Assembly: GCF_000518865.1 (NCBI RefSeq)
Contig: NZ_JAEK01000015.1
Location: forward strand, 1 to 64,000
DNA from: Bacillus sp. J37
Lineage (GTDB): Bacteria; Bacillota; Bacilli; Bacillales; Bacillaceae
Length of the DNA stretch: 64,000 nt
Reading direction: 5' to 3'
Below the pieces are notes generated by a model. That model saw only the letters and a list, made by a program, of their open reading frames with translations, was not told the origin of the DNA and did no database searches. Position numbers and translations under genes: made by a program. Below, one piece after another: positions 7,392-58,684 of this stretch (the first letter of the stretch is position 1; each line of letters starts with the position of its first letter).

Positions 7392-8147
7392 ATGAATAGT
7401 AAAAAAGAAAAAATTGCGATTATTACCGGTGTAAGTAACGAAAAAGAAATTGGTGCTGCAATATGCCGCAGACTGGCATCTGAAGGTATAGACATCTTCT
7501 TTACATATTTGAAGGCCGATTCTAACTGGGAAGAGAATTTTCGGAATGAAATGATTGAATCGGGTGTCCGCTGTGCGGGGATCGAACTAAATTTGTCAGA
7601 GAGTGATTCTCCTGAGCTTTTGATTAGAGAAGTCACTAGTACGTTAGGCATTCCTTCAATATTAGTAAATAATGCTGCACATTCAATTGATTCAAATTTT
7701 ATGGATTTAGATGCAAAGGTTTTGGATGACCATTATTATGTGAATGTGAGAGGGACAATTCTTCTCTGTGTAGAGTTTGCTAGACTAATACAGAAAACGA
7801 ATAGACAGCATGGGCGAATTATTAATTTAACATCCGGTCAACAATTAGGACCTATGCCCGGAAATTTAGCCTATGTTGCAACAAAAGGTGCAATCTCATC
7901 CTTTACACTCTCTTTATCAGCTGAATTGGCACATTTGGGCATTACAGTAAATGCGGTGAATCCTGGTCCCACAGATTCGACTTGGATGACAGATGAGATA
8001 AGAGAATACCTCCAACCTAAATTCCCAATGGGTCGTATTGGTCAACCAGATGATGCAGCCCGTATCATCTCATTTCTTACTAGTGATGATGCCGGTTGGA
8101 TAACAGGTCAGGTTATTCATTCAGAAGGTGGGTTTTATCGGGGGTAG
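7392..8147 (+). CDS. Short-chain dehydrogenase/reductase (SDR)
   Basis: A 251-residue classical-type SDR. The N-terminal nucleotide motif reads TGVSNEKEIG (a variant of TGxxxGIG), followed by the NNAA motif, the catalytic Ser region (LTSGQQ) and YVATK near residue 160, and the C-terminal PGPTDS region. It resembles 3-oxoacyl-ACP reductase-like SDRs, but the substrate cannot be named. The start is ATG 7392 behind GGGAGGGA rather than the in-frame ATG at 7377, which lies within the binding site. It is monocistronic, with a terminator at 8181. Confidence 0.88.
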   Translation: MNSKKEKIAIITGVSNEKEIGAAICRRLASEGIDIFFTYLKADSNWEENFRNEMIESGVRCAGIELNLSESDSPELLIREVTSTLGIPSILVNNAAHSIDSNFMDLDAKVLDDHYYVNVRGTILLCVEFARLIQKTNRQHGRIINLTSGQQLGPMPGNLAYVATKGAISSFTLSLSAELAHLGITVNAVNPGPTDSTWMTDEIREYLQPKFPMGRIGQPDDAARIISFLTSDDAGWITGQVIHSEGGFYRG

Positions 8148-52603: not shown

Positions 52604-52648
52604 TTGTAACTTTTTTGTAACTCTTTTATAGAGAAGGACTTATATAAT
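52604..52648 (+). promoter_or_regulatory. Promoter with 11-bp direct repeats before the kinase operon
   Basis: TTGTAAC occurs at 52604-52610 and 52615-52621, exactly 11 bp apart, over the expected -35 region, and TATAAT lies at 52643-52648. A further TTGTAAC is at 52527, 77 bp upstream (seven 11-bp steps). Direct repeats with helical spacing are the usual binding form of OmpR/PhoB response regulators; one is encoded in this operon, so self-activation is plausible. Confidence 0.5.
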
Positions 52649-52701
52649 AAATTTATTCGAAGGAAACAGTAATTTTTGGAAAAATGAATGGAGTGTCCAT
52701 C

Positions 52702-53961
52702 ATGAGAAAGAAAAGCAAATCAACATTAATAATAGGTCTAGTTATGAGCAGTATGATGTTATCGGGTTGCCAACTTGTTGAATCTCCTAATGCATTAATT
52801 GAAGCTCCCCAACAAGAAAAAGAACAGAATATAGAATTGAGTAAAAAAGCGGCAGAGCTGCTCCCAACTAATAGTGAATTACTAACCCCGGTAAATTCTA
52901 ATAAAAAACAGTCAATTTTTATTGCTGATAGTAATGACGATGGGAACCAGGAAGCCTTTCTTTTGTATAGAGGTTTAGGGGAAAATCGTAAAGTTCATCT
53001 TCTTTCTTTACAGGAAACTGACAATGATTGGAGAGAAGTATCAGACTTTGAATTGGATTATCTGCAACTTGATTATTTTGGTCTCCATGATTTAGACAAT
53101 GATGGACGAGTAGAAGTAGTCATCGGCCTTGGAGGATCAGACTTTGAATCAGAGAAAGAGCTTATGATATACCAATGGAAGGAAGAGGGGCTGACACAGG
53201 TAGTAAATAAAGGATATGAAATCCTTGATATTGCGGACTATGATCTTGACGGAAAAGCAGATGTTCTTATTGTCCATGGGAAGAGAAGAGAATTTATGGA
53301 GGCGGAGCTTCTTACATTCAGGTCTGGTCAAATAGAGACAACCTCAAGTGTGAATATGGATGCTTTTGCATTTCATGAAAATACAGTGAGTGGAAAATTA
53401 TCTGATGGTAATCAGGCATTGTTTATTGATGGTGGTGTTGGTGCTCATTCAATGGTGACTGAAATCATTGCTTTTGAGGACGGGAAGCTTATAAAGGTGG
53501 ATGAAAGAGCTGGTGGAATGCTCATTAAAGAATACCCACTTTATAGTAAAGATATTAATGACGATGGGGTCATTGAAGTAGGTGGGATGTATATCCCAAA
53601 AGGGTGGGAAGAAGAAGCATTTACTGATATTCCGTTTATTGAATACTATTCAACATATTCAATAAATGGGGAGGAAAAAAAGATTGAGGAAAGATATACA
53701 AACAGAGAGCATAAGTTTTACATCACAATTCCAGTTGATTGGCATGGTAAGGTAAAAATTAAAAAGGTTGAAAATAGTATCCAATTAATCTCTGTTTCAG
53801 ATGATGAACTACTTTTTGAGGTTAAATGGAGTAACCTCGAATCGGTTGCACCGAAAGGCCATGTCTTCAAAAAAACAAAAGATACCTTTTTTTATACGGA
53901 AATGAAAGAAAAAGATGCTTTTCCATTTAATCAGTTTCATTTATTAGAAGATGAGTTTTAA
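52702..53961 (+). CDS. FG-GAP/VCBS-like repeat lipoprotein
   Basis: A 419-residue lipoprotein with lipobox LSGC near residue 22. The external part has repeated calcium-loop-like acidic motifs: DSNDDGNQEAF, HDLDNDGRVEVV, ADYDLDGKADVLI and SKDINDDGVIEVG, typical of FG-GAP/VCBS propeller blades, and a C-terminal different region (YITIPVDWHGKVKI). It could be a ligand-binding sensor component. ATG 52702 follows GGAGTG. Only 13 bp separate its stop from the response regulator start. Confidence 0.75.
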   Translation: MRKKSKSTLIIGLVMSSMMLSGCQLVESPNALIEAPQQEKEQNIELSKKAAELLPTNSELLTPVNSNKKQSIFIADSNDDGNQEAFLLYRGLGENRKVHLLSLQETDNDWREVSDFELDYLQLDYFGLHDLDNDGRVEVVIGLGGSDFESEKELMIYQWKEEGLTQVVNKGYEILDIADYDLDGKADVLIVHGKRREFMEAELLTFRSGQIETTSSVNMDAFAFHENTVSGKLSDGNQALFIDGGVGAHSMVTEIIAFEDGKLIKVDERAGGMLIKEYPLYSKDINDDGVIEVGGMYIPKGWEEEAFTDIPFIEYYSTYSINGEEKKIEERYTNREHKFYITIPVDWHGKVKIKKVENSIQLISVSDDELLFEVKWSNLESVAPKGHVFKKTKDTFFYTEMKEKDAFPFNQFHLLEDEF

Positions 53962-53974
53962 GAGAGGGAAGTTT

Positions 53975-54673
53975 ATGAATAAAATTCTTGTTGTTGAAGA
54001 TGAGTTATCCATACGTAGCTTTGTCAGCTTAAATCTAAAAAAGAAGGGATACCTTGTAACGGAAGCAGAAACTGGAGAGGAAGCATTACGACAGTATCAT
54101 CGAGAGAACTTTGATATTATTTTGCTTGATTTAATGCTACCGGGTATCGATGGATTTGAAGTTTGCCAAGAAATTCGAAAGATTAATCAAACAGTAGGCA
54201 TTATTATGTTAACGGCTCGGACACAAGAGAAGGATAAGGTCGAGGGTTTAATCATTGGTGCAGATGATTACTTATATAAACCATTTAGCTTAGTCGAGCT
54301 CGAGGCTAGAATTTTTTCTCTGCTTCGAAGACTAGCTGTTGACCGCTCAATTTCAACGGAACATGATGAGAGGATTACTTCGGGTCCATTTCAATTGGAC
54401 ATGAAAACGAAGCGATTGATCAGTTCTGGAACAGAAGTAAAATTAACTCCAACTGAATTCTCTATTCTTCATTACCTTATGGGTCATCCAAATCGTGTCT
54501 TCACAAGAGATGAATTATTGGATGAGATATGGGGAAAGAACTATGTTGGTGATTTAAAAGTCGTGGATGTAAACATTAGACGAATTCGACAGAAAATCGA
54601 GACAGACCCTTCCTCACCAGTATATTTATGTACGGAGTGGGGGTTAGGGTACATATGGATGGGTAATGTATGA
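53975..54673 (+). CDS. OmpR/PhoB-family response regulator
   Basis: A 232-residue response regulator: N-terminal receiver with KILVVEDE and the phospho-acceptor Asp in DIILLDLMLPG, switch Thr in IIMLTAR and Lys in YLYKPFS, then a C-terminal winged-helix DNA-binding domain (KLTPTEFSILHYLM, then VVDVNIRRIRQKI). ATG 53975 sits behind GAGAGGGAAG. Its last codons overlap the kinase start (ATGA), so the pair is translationally coupled. The likely target includes its own promoter at 52604. Confidence 0.93.
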   Translation: MNKILVVEDELSIRSFVSLNLKKKGYLVTEAETGEEALRQYHRENFDIILLDLMLPGIDGFEVCQEIRKINQTVGIIMLTARTQEKDKVEGLIIGADDYLYKPFSLVELEARIFSLLRRLAVDRSISTEHDERITSGPFQLDMKTKRLISSGTEVKLTPTEFSILHYLMGHPNRVFTRDELLDEIWGKNYVGDLKVVDVNIRRIRQKIETDPSSPVYLCTEWGLGYIWMGNV

Positions 54674-56052
54674 AGCGCAAAGTCATTCTTTATTTCATGA
54701 TTATTATCCTTCTAACCTTAAGTTTAGTCATGACGGTGTTTGGATTTGCCTTGACCAATTATTATTATCAAGGAATTGCAGGTACTTTTCGCAGTCATGT
54801 GGAAGCGATTAATCCGATTTGGGAAAAAGGAAATGAGCTTAATTATGGCCGTTTAGAAGATTATAGTGATCTGATTATTAAAAGCTATCAATATCATTCT
54901 GCAGAATTGCAACTTTTATCAAATGATGGAGAGCTTATTCAATCAACATCTGGTTTTTATGAAGATAAAACCTATTCAATTGATCCCGATGTCTTTTCCT
55001 ATGAAACAGTTTATAAAAAGGAAGTAATGGAACAAACAGGAGAAAAAATCATTGCTGTCTACATACCACTAATGCTAGAGGGTCAGGTTGTGGGGGTGCT
55101 TCGGTATGTTTCTTCGTTAGCAAATGTCCATGCAGTCATTCTAAATCTGCTTAAATATGGAATGATGATTTGTACAGGGGTAGCAATCGTTGTCTTTCTT
55201 ATTAGCCTTCGTCTTGCAGACTCGATTGTAAGACCATTTAAAAAAATCATTCAGCATACACGTGAATTATCAAAAGGACGATTTGAAAAACGATTAAATA
55301 AAATATACCCTCATGAACTAGGTGAAATGGCGAACACACTAAATTATATGGCGGATGAAATTGTCAAGATGGATCGGTTAAAAACAGATTTCATATCCTC
55401 AATTTCTCATGAGCTCAGAACACCGCTTACAGGAATTAAAGGGTGGGTGGAAACGATAGAGTCACCGGAAGACTTAACAGAGCAGGAAGTGAAATTTGGC
55501 TTACGGATGATTCACACTGAATCTGAGCGGCTGATGAAATTAGTGGAAGATTTACTGGATTTTTCTAGGTATGAGTCAAATCGAATCATTCTTAACCAAG
55601 TTGAAGTAAACTTTGATGAACTCGTTTACGAAGTGACATTACAGCTTCAAAAGAAAGCAAAAGAGAAAAACATCTCGATTCATGTAGAAAGTGTACCAGT
55701 TCGGCTAATGGCTGATGGAGATAAAATGAGACAAGTCATGTTAAATTTACTGGATAATGCGATTAAGTTTTCTAAGGTGAATGGTGAAATTCAACTAAAT
55801 CTATACAAAAAGAATCATTTTGCTGTGCTTGAAATTAGTGACAAAGGAATAGGGATGAAGCAAGAAGAGATAACGTACATTATGGATTCCTTTTATAAAG
55901 TTGATTCAAAATCAATTGGTGCTGGACTTGGATTAGCGATCACTCGAAATATTGTCACAAAACACGGCGGGAAAATTGACGTTCTTAGTCAGTATGGAAA
56001 AGGAACAACAGTTGTCGTTCAATTGCCTTTGGTAAAGAATTCAACAAAATAA
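54670..56052 (+). CDS. Membrane sensor histidine kinase
   Basis: A 460-residue kinase: membrane helix 1 at about 5-30 and helix 2 at about 160-180 flank an external sensor of about 130 residues, followed by HAMP, the dimerisation box SSISHELRTPLTGIKGW with the phospho-His, and the ATPase domain (NLLDNAIKFS, ISDKGIGM, GAGLGLAITRNI). It should phosphorylate the response regulator encoded just before it. The external sensor is not a known named domain to me. Confidence 0.93.
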   Translation: MKRKVILYFMIIILLTLSLVMTVFGFALTNYYYQGIAGTFRSHVEAINPIWEKGNELNYGRLEDYSDLIIKSYQYHSAELQLLSNDGELIQSTSGFYEDKTYSIDPDVFSYETVYKKEVMEQTGEKIIAVYIPLMLEGQVVGVLRYVSSLANVHAVILNLLKYGMMICTGVAIVVFLISLRLADSIVRPFKKIIQHTRELSKGRFEKRLNKIYPHELGEMANTLNYMADEIVKMDRLKTDFISSISHELRTPLTGIKGWVETIESPEDLTEQEVKFGLRMIHTESERLMKLVEDLLDFSRYESNRIILNQVEVNFDELVYEVTLQLQKKAKEKNISIHVESVPVRLMADGDKMRQVMLNLLDNAIKFSKVNGEIQLNLYKKNHFAVLEISDKGIGMKQEEITYIMDSFYKVDSKSIGAGLGLAITRNIVTKHGGKIDVLSQYGKGTTVVVQLPLVKNSTK

Positions 56053-56081
56053 GTGAAAAATAATGGGAAGAGGTAAAGCAG

Positions 56082-57980
56082 ATGTGTGGGTTTATTGGAT
56101 ATATGAGTAGGAATCTAAAAGAACAAGCACTTGAAAAAAGACAAATTACTGTTGATATGACAACTATGATAACTCATCGGGGGCCAGATGATGTAGCCTA
56201 TTATACGGATGAGCATATTCACCTCGGCTTCAGAAGATTAAGTATTATTGATGTTGAAAGTGGTAGACAGCCTCTTTCGTATGATGATGATCGTTATTGG
56301 ATTACTTTTAATGGTGAAATTTACAACTATATAGAGCTAAAACAAGAATTAGAGAAGAAAGGTTATAAGTTTCATACGGATTCAGATACAGAGGTAATTA
56401 TAGCCTTATACAGTCATATTGGAACACGAGTTGTTAATGAATTACGCGGTATGTTTAGCTTTATTATTTGGGATCGGGAGAAAAAGGAATTATTTGGTGC
56501 CAGAGATCATTTTGGGATAAAGCCTTTTTATTATTATGAAACAGATGATGAATTTTATTGCAGCTCGGAAAAGAAAAGCATAATTAGTGCTATTAAAGGT
56601 ATCGGTAATATGGATTTAGAATCTTTACATCATTATTTGACATATCAATATGTTCCGGAGCCTCAAACGTTATCAAAAGAGATTAAGAGACTGGAGCCAG
56701 GTTGCTTTTTTACAAAAAAACTGGATGGAGCTATGATTATTCACTCCTTTTATAAGCCTACCTTTTGTCCAACGAATCAACCATTTGCCCAAGAGGTAAA
56801 GAAGATTCAACATGTATTAAGAGATTCAGTTGCTATGCATTTACGAAGTGACGTGCCGGTTGGCGCCTTTTTATCCGGAGGAATTGACTCATCGAGTATT
56901 GTCGCTTTGGCAAAGGAGACTCATCCACGTATAAAAACGTTTACCGTTGGATTTAAAAGAGAAGGATATAGTGAAATCGAATTGGCACAGGAAACAGCTG
57001 CAGCATTAAGTGTAGATAATCTTCATTATATTGTAACAGCTGAAGAGTTTATTAAAGAACTCCCTAAAATTGTGTGGCATTTAGATGAACCAGTAGCAGA
57101 TCCTGCTTTAGTTCCATTGTATTTTATTGCACGTGAAGCTAAAAAGCATGTAAAAGTCGTTCTATCTGGAGAAGGAGCCGATGAATTATTTGGAGGTTAC
57201 AATATATATAGAGAGCCACATTCGCTAAAATACTTGAAGCATTTTCCAAATAGTATGAAGAAAGGCTGGCTTGCATTGGCAAGTAAATTACCTGATGGTG
57301 CGAAAGGGAAAAGTTACATTGAAAGAGGTACAACGAATCTGGAAAAAAGGTATATTGGTAATGCGAAGATATTCTCTGAACATGAAAAAAGTCAGCTCCT
57401 ACGAAACTATCAAGGGGACTGGACATATACAAATGTTACGAAGGGATATTATCAAACGATTAACCACCTTCATGATATCCAAAAAATGCAATACATTGAC
57501 ATCCATACATGGCTTCGTGGTGATATCCTCGTCAAAGCAGACAGAATGACGATGGCACATTCTCTAGAGCTGCGAGTTCCATTTCTTGATAAAGAGGTGT
57601 ATAAAGTTGCATCACAACTTAGTCATGACAAAACGGTTACAAACCAACAAACAAAATATATACTTAGAAAAGCGATGGAAGGAATTATTCCGGATTCCGT
57701 GCTAAATCGCAAAAAACTAGGATTTCCGGTTCCAATTAGGCATTGGCTGCAAAACGAGCTATTTGATTGGGCCTATCAATTAATTATTGATAGTCAAACA
57801 GATCATTTATTTGAAAAAAATTATTTGTTATTTTTATTATCAGAACATCAAAGAGGGGTACATGATAACAGCCGTAAAATTTGGACAGTATTAATTTTTA
57901 TGATATGGCATCAAGTCTATGTCGAAAGAAAATACGACTTTCATCAGCTTTCTATGGAGAGAGAAACGGTTGTCGTATAA
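56082..57980 (+). CDS. asnB: Asparagine synthetase (glutamine-hydrolysing) family
   Basis: A 632-residue enzyme. MCGFIGYMS gives the N-terminal Cys nucleophile of the glutaminase domain, with HRGPDD and the FNGEIYNY region; the C-terminal synthetase domain has the PP-loop LSGGIDSSSIVAL near residue 265 and GEGADELFGGY. It is 29 bp after the kinase gene in one operon. B. subtilis AsnB is known to amidate meso-diaminopimelic acid in peptidoglycan, so a wall-modifying role is possible; plain asparagine synthesis is the alternative. The symbol denotes the family. Confidence 0.88.
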   Translation: MCGFIGYMSRNLKEQALEKRQITVDMTTMITHRGPDDVAYYTDEHIHLGFRRLSIIDVESGRQPLSYDDDRYWITFNGEIYNYIELKQELEKKGYKFHTDSDTEVIIALYSHIGTRVVNELRGMFSFIIWDREKKELFGARDHFGIKPFYYYETDDEFYCSSEKKSIISAIKGIGNMDLESLHHYLTYQYVPEPQTLSKEIKRLEPGCFFTKKLDGAMIIHSFYKPTFCPTNQPFAQEVKKIQHVLRDSVAMHLRSDVPVGAFLSGGIDSSSIVALAKETHPRIKTFTVGFKREGYSEIELAQETAAALSVDNLHYIVTAEEFIKELPKIVWHLDEPVADPALVPLYFIAREAKKHVKVVLSGEGADELFGGYNIYREPHSLKYLKHFPNSMKKGWLALASKLPDGAKGKSYIERGTTNLEKRYIGNAKIFSEHEKSQLLRNYQGDWTYTNVTKGYYQTINHLHDIQKMQYIDIHTWLRGDILVKADRMTMAHSLELRVPFLDKEVYKVASQLSHDKTVTNQQTKYILRKAMEGIIPDSVLNRKKLGFPVPIRHWLQNELFDWAYQLIIDSQTDHLFEKNYLLFLLSEHQRGVHDNSRKIWTVLIFMIWHQVYVERKYDFHQLSMERETVVV

Positions 57981-58020
57981 ATAAAATGAAGATAAAGCAT
58001 ATGAAAGAAGAGAAGAGTAA

Positions 58021-58527
58021 ATGAAAAAATCAATTGGGTTAACGGGGCTTGTTTGTTTCTTATTAGTTGGATGTAATCCTAAACCAACAACGGAAGTAAT
58101 AAATGAACCCGTCGATAAAACAATGAAAGAAGCGGATATAGCTGGAATAGAACAAGCAACAACTGTAAGTAAACGAGAAGATTATTTGAAAAAGCTTGCT
58201 GAGATTGAACAAAGTCTTGCTGAATTTGATCAGGCATTAGAAAACGGGTCAACTGTTGAATTAAAGCAGGCCCAAGGTGAAATTCTTACAAGATGGGATA
58301 ATATGTTAAATGAAATTTACCAAGCACTCGAAGAACAGCTTTCTCCAAGTAATATGGAAAAATTAAGAGAAGAACAAAGGGAATGGATCAAATACCGTGA
58401 TGATGCTGCAAAAGATGCTGCCGCTAAATACGAAGGCGGGACGATGGAATCACTGGAATATATAAGCGTACAAGCAGGGCTAACAAAAGAAAGATGTTAT
58501 GAATTAGTTGAAAAGTACATGGAGTAG
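58021..58527 (+). CDS. LprI-like (DUF1311) lipoprotein
   Basis: A 168-residue lipoprotein: MKKSIGLTGLVCFLLVGC gives the lipobox LVGC. The C-terminal domain (YQALEEQLSPSNMEKLREEQ, then REWIKYRDDAAKDAAAKYEGG and TMESLEYISVQAGLTKERCYE) is a DUF1311/LprI-type domain, found in proteins reported to inhibit lysozyme. It follows the synthetase by 40 bp, last in the operon before a terminator. A protective role at the cell wall would fit the neighbours but is inference. Confidence 0.8.
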   Translation: MKKSIGLTGLVCFLLVGCNPKPTTEVINEPVDKTMKEADIAGIEQATTVSKREDYLKKLAEIEQSLAEFDQALENGSTVELKQAQGEILTRWDNMLNEIYQALEEQLSPSNMEKLREEQREWIKYRDDAAKDAAAKYEGGTMESLEYISVQAGLTKERCYELVEKYME

Positions 58528-58538
58528 CCCCTGTAATT

Positions 58539-58572
58539 AATCCGCTTGCCAAAGAGGAAAGCGGATTTTTTA
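58539..58572 (+). terminator. Rho-independent terminator of the kinase operon
   Basis: A 9-bp perfect stem (AATCCGCTT and AAGCGGATT) with a T run. It closes the unit that starts at 52702. Confidence 0.88.
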
Positions 58573-58684
58573 TATAGGAATTCAAGCATTATGATGTAGC
58601 TTTATATTTTTATTATATAAGGAGTAGAACATTGAATAAATTTAAATAAAAACCTTAAACATGTTGAATAAATAGATAATGAAA

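Follow-up and report, generated by a model that had tools for sequence, protein, structure and literature searches.

A lipoprotein–two-component module in Bacillus sp. J37 and its relatives, predicted to control its own operon and a wall-modifying enzyme

INTRODUCTION

The SigV–RsiV operon of Bacillus subtilis and its relatives includes OatA. RsiV is described as a receptor for lysozyme (PMC4183432). AsnB of B. subtilis and Listeria is reported to amidate meso-diaminopimelic acid (mDAP), and its loss yields lysozyme-sensitive cells; according to the same source, AsnO and AsnH of B. subtilis do not amidate (PMC8554201). Little is known about the control of mDAP amidation. In Clostridioides difficile, overproduction of WalR is reported to induce asnB ∼8-fold and pgdA 16-fold (PMC9210968). 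Here we analyze a locus in a 64,000-nt window of the Bacillus sp. J37 genome (positions 1–64,000 of contig NZ_JAEK01000015.1, RefSeq assembly GCF_000518865.1). In this 5.3-Mb genome, five co-directional open reading frames (ORFs) encode, in order, a lipoprotein, an OmpR-type response regulator, a sensor kinase, an AsnB-type amidotransferase and a lipoprotein with an LprI domain, followed by a terminator. We consider it likely, if well short of certain, that the locus forms an autoregulated envelope-stress regulon, in which the local regulator drives its own operon and a wall-modifying enzyme.

RESULTS

A direct repeat stands at the –35 position of module promoters

Upstream of the lipoprotein gene, the window carries the direct repeat TGTAAC-TTTTT-TGTAAC (52605–52621; + strand, as for all window features given here), which is the only match to TGTAAYTWTTTTGTAAC in the genome and a likely regulator-binding box. 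A –10 element, TATAAT, follows 21 bp after it (52643–52648). For comparison, we analyzed two classes of related loci: an LprI class of 11 distinct loci (the window, L091–L098, L100 and L134) and a distant class of 17 (L135–L151). A looser form of the box, TGTWAH-N5-TGTWAH, was sought in promoter zones that began ∼400 bp ahead of the start of the module's first gene and ended a few tens of bases past it; L147, whose contig offers ∼130 bp of upstream sequence, was not counted. The zone contains a box at 25 of 28 loci, and there are 26.5 boxes per 10 kb inside the zones versus 0.23 outside. At all five loci where AsnB is transcribed divergently, a second box faces AsnB.

The distance from box to –10 hardly varies. 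In all 12 lipoprotein promoters of the LprI class and a Lacrimispora locus, the best –10 within a range of 8–44 bp lies at 21 bp. The AsnB promoters of the five divergent loci have it at 21 bp (four) or 22 bp (L097), and each of these 17 promoters matches the –10 consensus in at least 5 of 6 positions. Among distant loci, 12 of 14 in-zone boxes are followed at 21 bp by a –10 of this quality, and the other two score 4/6. Taking both classes together, a –10 with at least 5/6 matches stands 21–22 bp after 29 of 31 in-zone boxes. Random positions give such a –10 in 0.9% of cases for LprI-class loci (exactly 21 bp) and 3.2% for distant loci (20–22 bp).

Six module genomes hold nine exact boxes, all of them at the module. 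One-mismatch boxes elsewhere in these genomes number eight, versus 18 matches for a reversed control pattern with one mismatch likewise allowed, and none of the eight has a –10 of at least 5/6 at 21 bp. Distinct AsnB genes that do not adjoin the module have a loose box upstream in 1 of 16 cases (L021), and that one is of another make; one of these upstream stretches spans only 194 bases.

Activator sites of the PhoB/OmpR kind take the place of the –35 element, at a constant distance from the –10. Because the box does the same, the regulator is most likely an activator of its own operon and, in the divergent loci, of AsnB as the wall-modifying enzyme. The window's AsnB lies inside the operon and so needs no box of its own. 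These data support an earlier sequence-only reading of the locus, which had put AsnB under the regulator's control: box, promoter geometry and two gene arrangements agree with it. The AsnB type that this reading gave the enzyme is supported too, by placement of the protein in the AsnB rather than the AsnO clade (see below).

AsnB and LprI mark one subclade of a wider module

The lipoprotein was found in 7 of 80 genomes of the family (E up to 0.001, the window's own counted), with six strong matches, indicating a patchy module. Two other families have matches in 3 of 43 and 1 of 17 genomes. Across the order, 49 of 397 genomes have a match at 1e-10: 29 long, covering most of the protein, and 20 partial only, the latter not counted as module carriers. 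Contexts were fetched for 20 of the 28 long-match genomes besides the window's, leaving out G430, G146, G367, G257, G386, G443, G207 and G406. The order lipoprotein–regulator–kinase is present in 17 of the 20. No regulator was found between the other two genes in L135 and L138, and the ORF caller found only the kinase in L148. In both fetched genomes of g85 (L135:8104–10806 and L138:8490–11039), the kinase gene begins ∼45 bp after the lipoprotein gene.

Among named genomes, a scan yielded 12 loci (Metabacillus, Robertmurraya, Peribacillus, Bacillus and one Lacrimispora) and two weak Bacteroidetes matches; L091–L094, L096–L098 and L100 were also met in other searches, and each was counted once. 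In the Lacrimispora locus (L. celerecrescens 152B, L099:10907–12308), two overlapping ORFs make up the kinase, and the fetched stretch showed neither LprI nor AsnB.

In a kinase tree, the 11 LprI-class loci form one group with 100/100 support. L099 was left out of this tree, and the named outgroup does not occupy one side of a branch, so the root is unsure. In 10 of the 11 loci the LprI gene comes after the kinase gene, either immediately or with AsnB in between; in L092 the contig ends first. AsnB directly follows the kinase in four (the window, L091, L093 and L092, where it runs to the contig end), is divergent and upstream of the lipoprotein in five (L094–L098), and is not beside the module in two (L100 and L134). 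At the 17 distant loci, neither AsnB nor LprI was found adjoining the module, and the idea of the five genes as one ancient unit was rejected. From these comparisons, the core of the module is lipoprotein–regulator–kinase, with LprI and AsnB added in one subclade. The five-gene order pointed out in the sequence-only reading does recur as adjacency in relatives, but it is the mark of this subclade rather than an ancestral set.

AsnB stands beside the module in two arrangements

The window AsnB falls in the AsnB clade, split at 100/100 from five AsnO-type proteins; the tree is one without any named B. subtilis AsnB. It is ∼55–57% identical to most AsnBs of family genomes. The copies in L081 and L088 lie beside metK, as presumably does that in L023.

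AsnBs inside the operon form one clade and divergent AsnBs another. Forcing them together costs 43.6 log-likelihood units, with p = 0.0015 in the approximately unbiased (AU) test, an optimistic value given that the clade was chosen after a first quick tree. The test included three of the four in-operon and all five divergent AsnBs. For the AsnB trees, 12 near-identical rows were dropped, the contig-end copy L017 was excluded and matches without a locus mostly stayed unfetched; L160 was out of the second tree. As the two sets do not form one clade, the link between AsnB and the module appears to have arisen, or been renewed, twice.

Another AsnB lies near a different regulator–kinase pair and an ATP-binding cassette (ABC)-transporter gene in L079, L080 and L083 of the same genus (AsnB at 8030, 8275 and 8084, respectively), perhaps a second link of AsnB to wall stress.

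Some distant modules adjoin a deacetylase

A polysaccharide deacetylase gene (PF01522) is the module's neighbor at nine of the 17 distant loci, or at 9 of 16 without the truncated L147. It is upstream on the same strand in L137, L139, L140, L142 and L149, and divergent in L141, L143, L145 and L148. The 16 genomes hold 121 such genes, which by chance would put one within 3 kb of ∼1% of loci; nine or more then have a binomial probability of ∼2.5e-14, relatedness ignored. Seven of these proteins were included in an NCBIfam scan. For all seven, the best model was the Bacillus peptidoglycan N-acetylglucosamine (GlcNAc) deacetylase, at 141–166 bits, below the cut-off of 400. GlcNAc deacetylation is reported likewise to protect from lysozyme (PMC8554201).

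Where the deacetylase comes first in the row, a box precedes it in three of five loci (L137, L139 and L149). In L140 the box lies at the start of the deacetylase ORF, whose true start codon is probably later, and L142 has no box. L141 has two boxes, one for each divergent gene, the same plan as in the AsnB loci, and in L145 and L148 the box faces the module only. Deacetylase-linked loci fall on several branches outside the AsnB/LprI class in the kinase tree, given its unsure root. In L143 (6641–8551), a tandem pair of deacetylase-like genes runs divergently to the module.

The lipoprotein may act as a sensor

The lipoprotein (52702–53961) has the lipobox LSGC and four DxDxDG-type loops, at residues 76, 130, 179 and 284, with the main acidic positions invariant in all 11 aligned homologues. 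Its score against Pfam FG-GAP_3 is 26.2 bits, just under the cut-off of 26.9. No NCBIfam model matches it, and a PDB sequence search with its profile gave no significant match (best E 0.11). The predicted structure is of moderate quality, with a predicted local distance difference test (pLDDT) of 65.7 and a predicted template modeling score (pTM) of 0.58; it is propeller-like, matching portions of β-propellers such as those of DDB1, YesW and integrins.

Wall fragments, lysozyme or divalent cations are possible signals for the protein; alternatively, it might modulate the kinase. Tentatively, it could be a dedicated outside receptor for lysozyme or damaged peptidoglycan that signals to the kinase, giving Bacillales a second route besides RsiV, with interchangeable outputs (mDAP amidation or sugar deacetylation) on the same promoter code; we would not call this probable. 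Equally worth considering is that it senses divalent cations through the four loops, in which case wall amidation would be tuned to Mg2+/Ca2+ supply and not to damage or lysozyme. The invariant acidic residues fit this idea. In FG-GAP propellers, however, loops of the DxDxDG type usually hold structural calcium, and no ligand site is readable in the lipoprotein model. Mg2+ is reported to lower mDAP amidation and to inhibit hydrolases in B. subtilis (PMC8782873), and with evidence on both sides we hold cation sensing to be possible, if doubtful.

Several lipoprotein genes have unusual forms. In L121, L122 and L123, all of one genus (g33), each homologue has a single in-frame TAG. In L144 (7346–10203), two tandem copies stand ahead of the regulator and kinase genes, and a box precedes the first. 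In L138 (4364–9620), the gene is in two ORFs (104 and 376 aa) ∼3.8 kb apart with four opposite-strand ORFs between them, an insertion-like arrangement.

The regulator resembles WalR but is a distinct protein

The regulator (53975–54673) belongs to the OmpR/PhoB family. It scores 219 bits on the NCBIfam YycF/WalR model, below the cut-off of 340, and the genome has a separate true WalR that scores 464.8. WalR is nonetheless its closest paralogue in the genome (46% identity), and the recognition helices of the two are alike, which fits a WalR-like site. The kinase (54670–56052) has an extracytoplasmic part and HAMP, HisKA and HATPase domains; its predicted structure is too poor to read (pLDDT 60.3).

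The WalR consensus is TGTWAH-N5-TGTWAH, and the box fits it. This match and the similar helix of the genome's own WalR count against local control, and raise the alternative that the essential WalRK pair controls these promoters, the module being one target of the WalR regulon, like asnB of C. difficile with its response to WalR overproduction. Yet WalR would be expected to have other targets, and the exact boxes of six genomes occur only at the module; the box also accompanies the module from locus to locus, and the local regulator falls well short of the YycF cut-off that the true WalR exceeds. We therefore regard control by WalRK in place of the local pair as unlikely. Cross-talk with WalR is possible.

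AsnB is a candidate mDAP amidase

AsnB (56082–57980) is a glutamine amidotransferase. The N-terminal Cys2 of such enzymes marks the glutaminase, and SGGIDS the ATP loop; the window protein begins MCGF and has an SGGIDSS loop. Its residues 385–483 sit between two HMMER blocks whose separation in 1ct9 (E. coli AsnB) is 17 residues; for mDAP enzymes, an extra loop relative to E. coli AsnB is reported. The genome has this one AsnB, one AsnO-type gene (31% identity) and weaker partial matches. On the basis of its clade, the window AsnB probably amidates diaminopimelic acid in peptidoglycan precursors.

AsnB might instead merely make asparagine, its operon position being incidental. The best NCBIfam model above cut-off for the protein is indeed asparagine synthase, and some AsnB-type enzymes are reported to be capable of both reactions (PMC8554201). 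Set against this, the genome carries a separate AsnO-type gene, as does each of the 8 relatives searched; the window protein groups with the AsnB clade; the core adjoins deacetylases elsewhere; and two AsnB subclades stand beside the same module. An enzyme for asparagine alone is, in our estimate, decidedly unlikely.

LprI probably modulates the wall or its hydrolases

The last gene (58021–58527) encodes a lipoprotein with an LprI domain (PF07007; 74.4 bits versus a cut-off of 22), and a Pfam search that admitted E values up to 0.01 gave no hit to MliC. Lysozyme inhibition by LprI of the Mycobacterium tuberculosis type is credited to the MliC domain, and the Salmonella LprI-domain protein ScwA is reported to have no role in lysozyme resistance and to control hydrolase levels (PMC7933661). 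A PDB search with the LprI profile gave one convincing entry, 6ar7, called uncharacterized, and four weaker rows. By analogy, LprI is probably a wall or hydrolase modulator outside the membrane. The sequence-only reading had cast it as a lysozyme inhibitor, a role that the lack of MliC and the Salmonella case leave unsupported.

A second LprI-domain gene, with 53% identity across 119 aa, lies elsewhere in the window's genome (L089:7611–8255). In the genus, 15 of 21 genomes, the window's own included, have one or more LprI matches, most of them without the module.

The five genes form a compact row

Four of the five proteins pass their Pfam cut-offs, the first lipoprotein alone falling just below. 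Two start codons were revised because a ribosome-binding sequence stands before each ATG: the lipoprotein start was moved from 52684 to 52702 (GGAGTG precedes) and that of the regulator from 53951 to 53975 (GAGAGGG precedes). With these starts, the lipoprotein and regulator genes are 13 bp apart, regulator and kinase overlap by 4 bp (ATGA), and the remaining two gaps are 29 and 40 bp. An intrinsic terminator with a 9-bp stem and T-rich tail ends the row (58539–58572; stem ∼58539–58567), and the stretch 58525–58580 folds at –21.1 kcal/mol (z –5.05). A simple promoter/terminator scan of the sequence picked up neither the operon promoter nor the terminator; it gave 36 promoter-like sites versus 29.3 expected. 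Thus the five adjacent genes, small gaps, 4-bp overlap and end terminator of the sequence-only reading are all present.

The nearest named relative at the module is Metabacillus halosaccharovorans, with 94% identity for the lipoprotein and 96% for AsnB. Gene order recurs in relatives, which argues that the row is not due to chance; an unregulated neighborhood of chance or descent, as close relatives inheriting the same order might suggest, is highly improbable in view of the two AsnB arrangements and subclades and the conserved box and spacing.

DISCUSSION

We propose that the surface lipoprotein and the outer part of the kinase would sense a change in the wall or surroundings, and that the kinase would then phosphorylate the regulator. 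The regulator would bind TGTAAC-N5-TGTAAC at the –35 position and activate its own operon and the enzyme gene. AsnB would amidate mDAP in precursors and so change the way lysozyme, or the cell's own enzymes, hydrolyze the wall. LprI, produced together with it, would probably act outside the membrane, with the wall or hydrolases as its target. In distant relatives, a peptidoglycan-deacetylase-like enzyme would be the output of the same core.

Because loss of AsnB sensitizes cells to lysozyme and GlcNAc deacetylation protects them, the common output of the module is likely a peptidoglycan change that alters hydrolysis. For this output, 'control of wall hydrolysis' is safer wording than protection. 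The cell-wall protection system of the sequence-only reading holds in outline, in that the core is linked to wall-modifying enzymes and AsnB to the regulator; the blocking of lysozyme by LprI is left unsupported.

Besides the resemblance to WalR noted above, several observations weigh against our proposal. Three of 28 loci (L142, L150 and L151) have no in-zone box, and the in-zone box of L143 faces the deacetylase only. Among the five boxes that distant loci have outside the zone, one has a 5/6 –10 at 21 bp; it lies within the kinase gene of L145. A deacetylase neighbor is missing from 7 of 16 evaluable distant loci. No AsnB-clade gene was seen in the genomes of L100 and L134 (G073 and G202, respectively) by an AsnB search for G073 and an AsnO-type query for both. 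Both the promoter zones and the tested clade were chosen after first looks at the data. Finally, mDAP amidation seems to enhance autolysin activity (PMC8782873), so protection is not the sole possible effect.

The locus offers a small regulon open to testing: its binding site is predicted, with constant spacing, and its outputs are exchanged from one relative to another. A lipoprotein family that has no curated name, and that gives long matches in 29 of 397 genomes sampled from the order, would thereby gain a role.

The analysis suggests a two-component envelope regulon with a lipoprotein partner and swappable wall-modifying outputs, a wall-protection circuit not yet described. A search of open-licence PMC papers by title and abstract start found none describing this lipoprotein–kinase module, which is weak evidence of absence, and no paper in the searched set has both AsnB and LprI as whole words. 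Within that literature, this agrees with the sequence-only reading, which knew of no described system with this set.

Among known systems, SaePQRS resembles the module in having a lipoprotein gene just upstream of regulator and kinase genes, a likeness by description, not by sequence comparison; its targets differ. The vancomycin-induced asnB of C. difficile likewise puts AsnB amidation under wall-stress control, by a mechanism that a 2020 commentary called unknown (PMC7376269). The WalRK regulon shares the form of the site and a similar recognition helix, and in C. difficile it includes asnB and pgdA (PMC9210968). It differs in that the local regulator is not WalR, the predicted regulon of the module is a single locus, and the module has a patchy distribution, with the lipoprotein in 7 of 80 genomes of the family. 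By Pfam, the window's five genes belong to families other than extracytoplasmic function (ECF) sigma factors and RsiV. SigV–RsiV–OatA pairs an outside sensor with peptidoglycan modification, as the module does, but where that system relies on a lysozyme-binding anti-sigma factor and an ECF sigma factor, the module combines a lipoprotein with a two-component pair, and its enzyme is AsnB or a deacetylase.

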